A DNA stretch of 41,873 nt, from contig CALRGE010000001.1 in the NCBI GenBank assembly GCA_943357175.1, positions 129,232-171,104 of the forward strand, in the 5' to 3' direction. Position 1 is the first letter of the stretch; the number at the start of each line of letters is the position of its first letter. Made by a program: the position numbers and the translations under genes. This document shows positions 5,854 to 23,077 of this stretch, in pieces. The notes beneath the pieces are model-generated. The model was not told the origin of the DNA. It ran no database searches and saw nothing but the letters and a program-made list of their open reading frames with translations. The DNA comes from Candidatus Peribacteria bacterium (GTDB lineage Bacteria; Patescibacteriota; Gracilibacteria; UBA1369; 2-02-FULL-48-14).

Positions 5854-6858
5854 TTATTTATGGTTTTTCTTTCCAAGATTAATAGCATGTAAGGCCGCTT
5901 CATCGAAATCGTTATCTACGTTTTTTGCCTCGATTTTCTTATATTCGGTAAAGTTCCTTTCGGCTATTTCTACTGCTAGTTCGTGAGATATTTTGCCTGC
6001 ATCTTCCAGAATGTTTTTATTATTAATCTCTAAAAAACTGTGGAGTTTGACTATCCAATCTTTCATGTACATTGGGACTCTTTGCAGGGCTTGTCCTTCT
6101 GCAAATATGAGATATTGTTCAACGATATTATTTAAAACGAGAAGTTCCTGCTCGGTTAAATAATTTTTGGCGATTGTTATTTCTTCCTTTGTGGGTTTGC
6201 TACCTCTAAAGTTCGTAAGGCCAACATTCGGTTTTTTGCTATCTACTCTATTTGCAATAATTTCCGCGGCGGTGTTCCCGGTAATTGCATGATGAACTTT
6301 GTTTTGTACTGTTTTGAAAAAAAGAATGCTCTCCTTGGTCATAGGGTCATAATCGATACTGGTGCTAAAGATCTCGGTGATTTTTCGGTAGAATCTTTTT
6401 TCAGAAGTTCTAATATCTGAAATTCTGCGAGATAATTCTTCAAAATAATCAAATGGTAGATCTGGGTTTTTCAGTCGTTCATCATTCATCACAAAACCCT
6501 TAACAATGTATTCGCGTAGTCTTTGTGTAGCCCAAATACGGAATGATGTAGCTATAGAACTTTTTACACGGTATCCGACAGAAATAATCATGTCGAGATT
6601 GTAGTACTCTAATTCCCTTTTTACTTCACGCACACCCTCTTTTTGAACTGTAAAGAATTTCTTTACAGTTGAATTTTCTGATAGTTCAACTTCTTCTATG
6701 ATATTTTTAATATGTTGACCAATATTTTGCTTTGTTGTTTGGAATAGTTCTGCCAAGGCATTTTGTGTCAACCATACCGTCTCGCCATCAAAACGCACGT
6801 CGATTTTTGTCTCGCCGGTTTCTGACTTATAGATTATGAATTGTGATTTATTTTCCAT
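5854..6858 (-). CDS. RhuM family protein
   Basis: A 334-residue protein matching the RhuM (virulence RhuM) family along its full length. Conserved stretches are IDVRFDGETVWLTQNALAELF and the repeated-helix region around YYNLDMIISVGYRVKS. The central segment also matches: RIWATQRLREYIVKGFVMND. The family was named from a Salmonella pathogenicity island gene, but its biochemical function is not known. Members are scattered and often sit in accessory or defence-type neighbourhoods. Here it is a single gene between secA and an envelope gene, with no mobile genes beside it. The upstream region has an AT-rich run (TATATA about 20 bases before the ATG) that could serve as a promoter. Family assignment is solid; role is unknown. 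Confidence 0.88.
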   Translation of the reverse strand: MENKSQFIIYKSETGETKIDVRFDGETVWLTQNALAELFQTTKQNIGQHIKNIIEEVELSENSTVKKFFTVQKEGVREVKRELEYYNLDMIISVGYRVKSSIATSFRIWATQRLREYIVKGFVMNDERLKNPDLPFDYFEELSRRISDIRTSEKRFYRKITEIFSTSIDYDPMTKESILFFKTVQNKVHHAITGNTAAEIIANRVDSKKPNVGLTNFRGSKPTKEEITIAKNYLTEQELLVLNNIVEQYLIFAEGQALQRVPMYMKDWIVKLHSFLEINNKNILEDAGKISHELAVEIAERNFTEYKKIEAKNVDNDFDEAALHAINLGKKNHK

Positions 6859-20891: not shown

Positions 20892-21787
20892 AAAAAAATC
20901 TTACAAGCCGGGCAAGCGCTTTATTAATCTCGTTTTTTTTGATGTCGATTTTAATTTTGGTTGGATTGGGCGTTAGTACAATTGTGTTTCGTGATTTGGC
21001 CAGTGTTCGAACAATTTTGAACGGAAAAATGTCTGCTTATGCTGCGGAAGGAATGAGTGAGTTAGGGCTTGGAATTGTGAAAGAGCATTTGCCTGGGTAT
21101 CAACCAGAGATTAATGAAATTACTTTAAGTAATGCTGCGATTGGAAATCTTGAGATTATCGCTCGTGGGGATTCTGTTCCTTGCAAAATTAATGAAGATG
21201 ATGAGGAATATCGCAGTCTTGCTTTGAATGAGTCAATTCAGATTCCACTTTTTGCGGATATTGACGGTTCAGAACCCGAGGCAATTGATAATTTTTCCGT
21301 AGATTATAAAATGCACGATGTAAGTGCTATTCCTAGTGGTAATATTTTAAGGTGGAAAATTTTGGGTTTGATGGATGGCAAAACTCAAGCGATTTCAGAC
21401 TATATTGCAGCAGATTCAGCTTTAAATAACTTTTCATCAAGTTCAGCAACTGCAAAATTTTATGGTGATGAAGGTGGTAGTCATTATGCTTTTTTTGATG
21501 CGTACCCAGTGTCACAATTTTTAGATGATCATAATTATAATTACTTAGTTTTAAGTAATGTTGTTCAGAATGAGGATTATGAGATCGATTTTAAATTTAC
21601 TGCCGCAGGAGCAGTTTGTGAATACATAACTTTGAATGCAGGTTCCAACTACAGTGATACTCAAAATGGAGTAACAACAAAAGTTAAAGAAGGTGAGAAT
21701 TTACCGGTTTTTGATTTTGCGCTTTATAATGCGAAGGGTAAATCTGTATTGCCAGCAGTTACTGCGAATACCCCGAATCTTCCGTGA
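20888..21787 (+). CDS. PilX/GspK-like minor pilin or pilus-associated membrane protein (299 aa)
   Basis: Begins MKKNLTSRASALLISFFLMS, followed by ILILVGLG: the start of PilX-type pilins (R-x-SALLxxxxxM), which lack a strict FTLIE motif. Residues after the helix contain SAYAAEGMSELGLGIVKEHL, matching the AAEGG-like helix of PilX. The remaining 230 residues are a variable, acidic extracellular part. It closes the pilus operon by ATGA coupling. Assignment is from the N-terminal pattern and position. Confidence 0.72.
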   Translation: MKKNLTSRASALLISFFLMSILILVGLGVSTIVFRDLASVRTILNGKMSAYAAEGMSELGLGIVKEHLPGYQPEINEITLSNAAIGNLEIIARGDSVPCKINEDDEEYRSLALNESIQIPLFADIDGSEPEAIDNFSVDYKMHDVSAIPSGNILRWKILGLMDGKTQAISDYIAADSALNNFSSSSATAKFYGDEGGSHYAFFDAYPVSQFLDDHNYNYLVLSNVVQNEDYEIDFKFTAAGAVCEYITLNAGSNYSDTQNGVTTKVKEGENLPVFDFALYNAKGKSVLPAVTANTPNLP

Positions 21788-21804
21788 TCTGCAATATTGA
21801 TGTG

Positions 21805-21853
21805 ATGTAAATTGGCTTGCCCATAACCCAATTTACATGTAAAATGGGTTATG
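21805..21853 (+). promoter_or_regulatory. Competing hairpins over the start codon of the DUF4143 ATPase gene
   Basis: Hairpin A: ATGTAAATTGG (21805-21815) pairs perfectly with CCAATTTACAT (21828-21838). Hairpin B: 21822-21837 pairs with 21838-21853 (15 of 16 pairs, one A-A mismatch) and includes the first ATG at 21851. The two share bases 21828-21838, so only one can form at a time. B would hide the start codon and A would free it. On DNA the same sequence is a 32-bp palindrome, equally compatible with a repressor site. Confidence 0.6.
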
Positions 21854-23050
21854 ATGAAACCACTTCACAGGCAGTTTAGAACAGTTCAACCGTACTGGAT
21901 TTCCGAAGAATGGCTTTCCGGTAGGATGCTTTTTTTATCTGGTTCCAGGCAGGTTGGTAAGACAACTTTGGTCAAAAATACTATTTGTAAAACTGAAGAT
22001 GCATATTTTAATTGGGATAATAGAGAAGTTCGAAAGTCACATTTAGCAGACTCGAGTTTTTTTGCAAAATCAAAATCCAAGTGGATTTGTTTTGATGAAA
22101 TTCATAAACGTCCGAAGTGGAAAGATATTTTAAAAGGGATTTATGATGTTTATAAAGATGACTTTAATTTTGTTATAACAGGTAGTGCCAGTCTTGATAC
22201 TTTCAAAAAAAGTGGAGATTCTCTGCTTGGAAGATATTTTCATACTCATCTTTTTCCATTAAATCTCCCTGATTTTAAGGAAAATGATTTTGTATTACCT
22301 GAAAATCCAGAGAAATTAATAAAGATGTCTTCTGACTTGAAAGATGCCAAAGAAATGGGCGGACTTTTGAAATTTGGTGGTTTTCCGGAGCCGTATTTCG
22401 CAGCTTCCGAATCTTTTCATAAAAGATGGTCTTTGAATCATAGAGATTTGATTTTAAATGAAGATTTGAGAGATTTAACCAGAGTTAGCGAAATCGATAA
22501 AATTGACTCTCTTTTAAGCATGTTGACACCTTCAATTGGTCAAACTTTAAGTTATAGAAATTTGGCGAATGATTTAGAAACGACTCACGGTAGTGTAAGA
22601 AGATGGCTTAATATTTTAACTACTCTTCAGCTGGTTTTTCCTGTTAGTCCTTATTCAAAAAAGATTAGAAGAGCCTTTAAACAGGAGAAAAAATGGTATT
22701 TTGTAGATTGGTCACAAGCGGGTGAAAATCGATTTGAAAATTATGTTGCTGCATCTTTAATGCGAGCAGTTACTCTTTGGCAAGACAGGTTTGGGGAAAA
22801 AATGACTCTACATTTCGTGAGAACTCATGGAGGTCAGGAAGTAGATTTTTTAATCTGTAAAAATGGGGATCCGTGGCTTTTTATTGAAGCTAAGGAAGGT
22901 GAGCCTGATGTTTCAAAAGCTCTACATAAATTCACGGAGGAATTTGAAATTCCCGGAATTGTTGTGACAGCTCAGGCTGATTGGTATAAAAAAGCCGGCA
23001 AATATATATATCAGATCTCTTGGGCTAAATTTGGCCAGGTATTGGCTTAG
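21851..23050 (+). CDS. AAA ATPase with DUF4143 domain
   Basis: 399 residues. The N-terminal AAA_14 domain has Walker A GSRQVGKTTL (31-40), a Walker B-like WICFDEIHKRPKW and the sensor strand FNFVITGSASLD. The C-terminal DUF4143 domain contains a winged-helix-like part (TLSYRNLANDLETTHGSVRR) and a restriction-fold-like core (EVDFLICKNGDPWLFIEAKEG), including the E-x-K pair of PD-(D/E)xK enzymes. Such ATPases are widespread in archaea, CPR and gut bacteria, and their role is unsettled. Two consecutive ATGs (21851, 21854) sit in a 32-bp palindrome, so translation may be controlled. It is not overlapped with the pilus operon and is likely a separate unit. Confidence 0.9.
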   Translation: MMKPLHRQFRTVQPYWISEEWLSGRMLFLSGSRQVGKTTLVKNTICKTEDAYFNWDNREVRKSHLADSSFFAKSKSKWICFDEIHKRPKWKDILKGIYDVYKDDFNFVITGSASLDTFKKSGDSLLGRYFHTHLFPLNLPDFKENDFVLPENPEKLIKMSSDLKDAKEMGGLLKFGGFPEPYFAASESFHKRWSLNHRDLILNEDLRDLTRVSEIDKIDSLLSMLTPSIGQTLSYRNLANDLETTHGSVRRWLNILTTLQLVFPVSPYSKKIRRAFKQEKKWYFVDWSQAGENRFENYVAASLMRAVTLWQDRFGEKMTLHFVRTHGGQEVDFLICKNGDPWLFIEAKEGEPDVSKALHKFTEEFEIPGIVVTAQADWYKKAGKYIYQISWAKFGQVLA

Positions 23051-23077
23051 TAGAGTTGAATATGTTAAAGTTCGGTC

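Follow-up and report, generated by a model that had tools for sequence, protein, structure and literature searches.

In the 41,873-nucleotide stretch of DNA analysed here (the window), we identified an array of repeated half-sites at positions 21806–21869 that, with a probability of roughly 0.8, represents an operator laid over the promoter of an AAA_14-DUF4143 ATPase gene, at which the encoded ATPase would bind and block RNA polymerase. The ATPase is probably an autorepressor of its own promoter. The repeat architecture of this element, its position relative to the promoter, its conservation, its subfamily-specific sequence and the association of the operator arm with the recognition helix were all computed directly.

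The half-site array and the ATPase gene

The palindrome at 21822–21853 is the strongest in the window; when the whole window was dinucleotide-shuffled 200 times, its score was reached twice. The initial annotation of this region had described two mutually exclusive hairpins, and both stems are present as claimed. Stem A pairs 21805–21815 with 21828–21838 over 11 perfectly matched bp, stem B occupies 21822–21853 with 16 positions, one mismatched pair and no loop, and bases 21828–21838 are common to the two. The stems share and compete for one arm because both are built from a single repeated half-site of 14 bp (approximately TGTAAAATGGGTTA), which occurs in four copies in direct, inverted, direct and inverted orientation with fixed geometry (Table 1). 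Stem A corresponds to H1 with H2, stem B to H2 with H3, and the fourth copy (H4) had been missed by the earlier description. The dyad axis is localised between 21837 and 21838, and the array extends over 64 bp with a direct period of 32 bp; this combination of dyad and direct period is the geometry that a DNA-binding oligomer would be expected to read.

Table 1. Features of the operator–ATPase locus in window coordinates
Feature	Position	Strand	Remark
Stretch from pil to metG	21788–23077	+	holds only the operator and the ATPase gene; relatives G005 and G001 are without the insert
Half-site H1 (TGTAAATTGGCTTG)	21806–21819	+	direct, 32 bp before H3; 11/14 match to H3; left arm of stem A
Predicted promoter, TTGCCC-17-TAAAAT	21817–21845	+	promoter match
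Half-site H2	21824–21837	-	inverted; 13/14 match to H3; left arm of stem B
Half-site H3	21838–21851	+	direct; forms the right arm of stem B; retained by seven close relatives
Half-site H4	21856–21869	-	inverted; 10/14 match to H3; inside the first codons of the ATPase gene
AAA_14-DUF4143 ATPase gene, 399 aa	21851–23050	+	PF13173 E=9e-26; PF13635 E=9.3e-23; PADLOC PDC-S01 E=1.1e-49 (best)
Walker A, GSRQVGKT	21941–21964	+	from translation; G31, R33, Q34, G36 and K37 invariant
Winged-helix region, residues 229–262	22535–22636	+	model helices 235–242 and 246–258; strand 262–267
PD-(D/E)XK-like motif, E296, D332, E346, K348	22736–22894	+	invariant in 24 aligned homologues
Codon 326 (H)	22826–22828	+	associated with the operator centre in some of the analyses

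The palindrome is present as a single copy in the 1.23-Mb genome (at most three mismatches, its own reverse complement aside). We rejected the ends of a mobile element as its identity, given that the genome contains no second copy, and likewise a host-wide regulon, given the one copy only. Next in strength within the window is a palindrome at 6643–6673 (TTGAACTGTAAAGAA/TTCTTTACAGTTGAA), located inside a gene on the reverse strand (5854–6858).

Both Pfam domains of the encoded protein score above their curated cut-offs (PF13173, 90.8 bits vs 27; PF13635, 81.2 vs 28.1), and the protein matches seven PADLOC models of PDC-S01. A sequence search for solved structures returned none at E<=0.1. The best matches of the structure model are SSO1545 (PDB 2fna; Z 14.1, rmsd 4.4, 252 residues aligned) and PABY2304 (PDB 2qen; Z 13.7, rmsd 5.2, 254 aligned), both covering residues 1–291. 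The recognition helix of the winged-helix region spans about residues 243–253 (ETTHGSVRRWL), and the structure model features a helix at 246–258. The C-terminal residues E296, D332, E346 and K348 compose a motif that we take to be PD-(D/E)XK-like.

In the relatives G005 and G001, pil lies directly before metG (loci L202 and L204, respectively). The stretch seen around metG of G002 contained no pil homologue, the G003 locus is interrupted where its contig ends, and G004 was outside this comparison. No homologue of the ATPase was identified at E<=1e-40 in the other five genomes of the host's family. The best homologues in the phylum and order samples are 33–40% identical, and homologues of 59–67% identity are found in seven genomes of another phylum, two of which are named Deltaproteobacteria MAGs. 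Because the closest homologues belong to distant kin and the pil–metG junction is empty in relatives, the gene is most likely a horizontal arrival consisting of the operator and the gene and nothing else. In IMG/VR we found neither a tblastn-confirmed viral relative of the protein nor an exact match to the palindrome pattern; a viral profile search returned 17 distant relatives with 19–26% identity.

Conservation of the array and its position at the promoter

The initial annotation had named compensatory changes in relatives, and the occurrence of the palindrome before homologous genes, as the features by which its proposal could be judged. Both are present: in seven close relatives the palindrome is retained at the corresponding position and its changes are symmetric, and among the close relatives 4 of 14 dyad pairs are doubly changed, with a covariation score of 0.196 compared with at most 0.056 in slid controls. 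The opposite outcome, relatives lacking both features, was not what we observed.

For the wider family we collected 120 homologues, of which 118 were usable, and analysed the 250 bases before Walker A. The 119 listed matches comprised 30 represented as loci, 80 that were fetched and nine left out (including four short pieces); L044 was dropped as a repeat of L032, and L132 and L147 are without a Walker A end. A dyad scoring at least 10 was identified in 81 of the 118 homologues, and 37 have none at that score. The same score was reached in 1.2% of 5,900 shuffles, in 2.5% of 236 gene-body stretches and in none of 40 stretches located farther upstream. In a dyad-independent analysis, 60 of 118 promoters showed a self-match of at least 11 of 14 bases when shifted by exactly 32 bp; the median over shifts of 12–60 was 1, and 100 rounds of shuffling averaged 0.4 and never exceeded 3. 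We also scanned the flanks of 62 operators for additional half-sites at offsets from the central axis, using the half-sites of other operators as the reference. An extra copy of the operator's own half-site was present at -32 in direct orientation (+3.01 matches, t=9.2), the arrangement of H1 and a trait of the family, and another ended at +32 in inverted orientation (+2.00, t=7.3). An inverted copy ending at -32 was weakly indicated (+0.90, t=3.2, with the next offsets at +0.5 to +0.8). As read from these sequence patterns, the family operator is a 64-bp dyad-symmetric array of four half-sites. In the L109 upstream region, two half-sites meet arm to arm in the best dyad, which is what an alternating lattice predicts.

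Among more distant DUF4143 genes, dyads scoring at least 10 were found in 8 of 24 from relatives of the host (3.7% of shuffles) and, across ten genomes belonging to the other phylum, in 13 of 27 (2.0% of shuffles); L215, counted among these 27, duplicates L055 of the close clade. The 32-bp period and lattice were not convincing in the DUF4143 clades outside the close clade. Of six plasmid homologues surveyed, one on an Azotobacter salinestris plasmid has a 47-bp imperfect palindrome (score 19.5; L238, 850–896) that extends into the start of the DUF4143 gene, one on a Treponema plasmid has a 44-bp palindrome (score 12.0), one on a Sulfitobacter conjugative plasmid (L240) is preceded by repeats, and the remaining three have weak dyads only. 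A restriction endonuclease gene directly follows the L240 gene. ATPase relatives are also located near integrases on plasmids of the endosymbionts Rhabdochlamydia oedothoracis (L034) and Bandiella numerosa (L035); the Bandiella gene is annotated in two pieces and is additionally near PIN/VapC toxin–antitoxin pairs. The genome that contains L032 (G457) has undergone a large expansion, with 44 DUF4143 matches at E<=1e-8 in 2.2 Mb, and four others of the ten genomes of its phylum have 24–26.

Based on promoter prediction, the inverted repeats in the window overlap the ATPase gene's own promoter. The promoter match is by itself unremarkable, with 10 such sites in a 2.4-kb stretch compared with 8.0 expected; the aligned place reads TTGACA..TAAAAT in most of eight close homologues. 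Since the predicted -10 hexamer ends 5 nt upstream of the first ATG, the ATPase transcript probably begins at or near the start codon and would include neither hairpin. Across the family, 51 of 79 strong dyads are accompanied by a promoter match scoring at least 9, a score reached in 18% of shuffled upstream regions. Of these 51 matches, 44 overlap the dyad and 39 have a -10 hexamer ending 5–9 nt before the start codon, a leaderless-like arrangement.

These positions bear on the principal claim of the initial annotation, which was that the competing hairpins form a riboswitch, thermosensor or other RNA switch in the mRNA leader that hides or exposes the ATG. The first ATG (21851–21853) does correspond to the last three bases of stem B, and the paired changes in the central dyad, taken alone, would fit RNA as well as DNA. 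Mismatched dyad pairs include 20 G.T and 11 A.C, a difference in the direction expected of RNA, although not a clear excess (p=0.15). Against this, the predicted promoter excludes both hairpins from the transcript, so that, judged by promoter prediction, no structure was found in a transcribed leader, and just 8 of 79 family members have the start codon within the dyad. The RNA folding of the region is unexceptional (z = -1.04; equalled by 33 of 200 shuffles), stem B has no loop, and Rfam returned no match at E<=1 in 21600–22000. The lower pairing of stem A (71.6% of cells in the eight close relatives, against 89.3% in the central dyad) is in keeping with a degenerate H1. Whereas symmetric change alone does not discriminate DNA from RNA, position, absent loop and period can, and we regard an RNA switch as extremely improbable. 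The palindrome is real and looks like a DNA element rather than an RNA switch. The earlier interpretation is therefore partly supported: its switch is not supported, and the sequence comparisons do support its alternative, a palindrome bound by the ATPase protein or by a regulator.

The recognition helix, residue 326 and the operator sequence

Operator sequences differ between subfamilies and paralogues, and operators travel with the gene. Within a genome, the operators of paralogues were no more different than operators between genomes, so this comparison gave no sign of orthogonal, mutually insulated paralogues. To relate protein to operator we used 88 of the 118 homologues (those with a dyad score of at least 9.5 in place) or the subsets indicated. 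Five-residue windows of the protein were compared as predictors of operator-arm similarity in pairs less than 45% identical. Windows starting at residues 246, 245, 243, 244 and 247 ranked 1, 2, 3, 5 and 6 of 214, all of them on or at the winged-helix recognition helix. At 40% identity with the full set, the four testable helix windows ranked 1–4; at 45% identity, helix windows ranked 1, 2, 6, 7 and 75 with dyads of at least 12 only, and 1–4 and 183 with even gaps. Two stricter subsets below 40% identity contained too few pairs to rank these windows. Among pairs less than 45% identical, no other part of the protein follows operator-arm similarity as closely as the recognition helix. The clearest case is the helix VAFETV, which is paired with the arm TTTTTTAGAG at three separate places in the tree and supplies much of the signal. 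Single-column scans also select positions beyond the winged helix (371, 141 and 92, for instance), and in leave-clade-out, position-specific prediction most columns, 326 among them, improved the result little or not at all.

Residue 326 was the top of 311 columns for association with the operator centre, first or second in another scan and fourth of 296 columns in a third. The pattern was cleanest among homologues with a CTCNNGAG centre: all seven with T326 have CTCATGAG, all three with I326 have CTCGCGAG and the single one with A326 has CTCATGAG; other homologues with T, I or A at this position (three, five and three, respectively) are without a CTCNNGAG centre. The tests disagree and leave-clade-out prediction gave no clear gain, and we did not retain residue 326 as the reader of the centre. 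Its association with the operator centre is only suggestive and may serve as a lead.

The palindrome might instead be the operator for another regulator of the host, as our results point to the binding protein only indirectly. We consider this very unlikely: the operator travels with the gene across phyla and differs between subfamilies, the palindrome is present as one copy in the host genome and as one in both other genomes tested, and the operator arm follows the recognition helix of the ATPase itself.

Proposed regulation and comparison with known systems

We propose that the AAA+/winged-helix/PD-(D/E)XK-like protein would bind the 64-bp array as an oligomer using several half-sites, and that the bound oligomer would cover the promoter and block RNA polymerase, resulting in negative autoregulation. 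The ATPase would then be released from the operator when its nucleotide state or the DNA bound to it changes. That the ATPase would assemble on the four half-sites draws good, if indirect, support from the sequence comparisons. Repression, rather than activation, we infer because the half-sites overlap the promoter, and from that overlap by itself. The release signal, be it nucleotide state or foreign DNA, and the target of the nuclease are conjecture.

Several AAA+/STAND regulators activate transcription, and the bound oligomer could correspondingly activate the ATPase promoter. For example, IniR is reported to bind and induce its target promoter (PMC5760070). Such positive autoregulation appears unlikely for the ATPase, as the half-sites cover the -35 to -10 region and, in the window, the start codon. 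It is similarly unlikely that the array serves primarily for nucleation, loading or cleavage by the nuclease, in the manner of an iteron, centromere or homing site, with gene control secondary. The invariant PD-(D/E)XK-like residues would be in accordance with this role, four ordered half-sites exceed the need of a simple repressor, and the L240 plasmid homologue has three direct repeats of CTTTCAATTRGTCGG type before the gene (711–870). However, the dyad overlaps the promoter match in most family members and is present as one copy per genome tested.

Returning to autorepression, a more elaborate version would be a one-protein circuit with a private address of four half-sites, in which the winged helix reads the arms while the centre is read by a loop, containing residue 326, within the PD-(D/E)XK-like domain. 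The protein would be silent when assembled, invading DNA or phage would release the nuclease, and the two readers would diverge independently. We consider this version doubtful; if true, it would provide a decodable protein–DNA code across tens of thousands of genes. Should the operator itself prove correct, members of the PDC-S01 family carry their own binding site beside the gene, which would make a substrate for binding, cleavage and structural studies readily available and supply a natural data set from which to derive a recognition code.

A 2026 survey places PDC-S01 fourth in frequency among defence candidates across prokaryotes, counting 29,494 bacterial and 9,986 archaeal systems, describes its architecture as an ATPase fused to PD-(D/E)XK and states that most such candidates still await validation (PMC12988326). 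The window protein has this same ATPase and PD-(D/E)XK architecture as the PADLOC phage-defence candidate. In the passages of that survey covered here an operator or binding site is not mentioned (PMC12988326), and the window gene differs in standing alone between pil and metG rather than in a defence locus. A Thermus thermophilus DUF4143 gene, TT_P0211, is listed in a table of genes changed when plasmid DNA is present (PMC4406477). The culturable T. thermophilus HB27 carries a homologue, TT_RS11170. Within the literature covered, which lies outside subscription papers and preprints, we found no operator of DUF4143 or PDC-S01 genes and no statement of which DNA PDC-S01 touches.

The archaeal AAA+ ATPases SSO1545 (from Sulfolobus solfataricus) and PABY2304 resemble residues 1–291 of the window protein, and their alignments stop short of its C-terminal domain. 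Orc1/Cdc6 initiators bind repeated origin boxes and, much as proposed for the window protein, combine AAA+ and winged-helix domains on ordered DNA repeats; ORC2 from A. pernix (PDB 1w5t) matches the structure model with Z 10.4, rmsd 6.1 and 252 residues aligned, compared with Z 14.1 for SSO1545. In contrast to these initiators, the repeats in the window lie over the gene's own promoter and a nuclease-like domain is fused to the protein. The operators of toxin–antitoxin systems and restriction controllers are autoregulated and palindromic, and these too place a palindrome, private to each system, over the promoter of a mobile gene. The ATPase locus differs from them in having one gene, and its presumed repressor combines an ATPase with a nuclease-like domain instead of being a small DNA-binding partner. 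The operator is therefore of a known kind, whereas its four-part geometry, its family-wide spread and its link to the recognition helix appear to be new.
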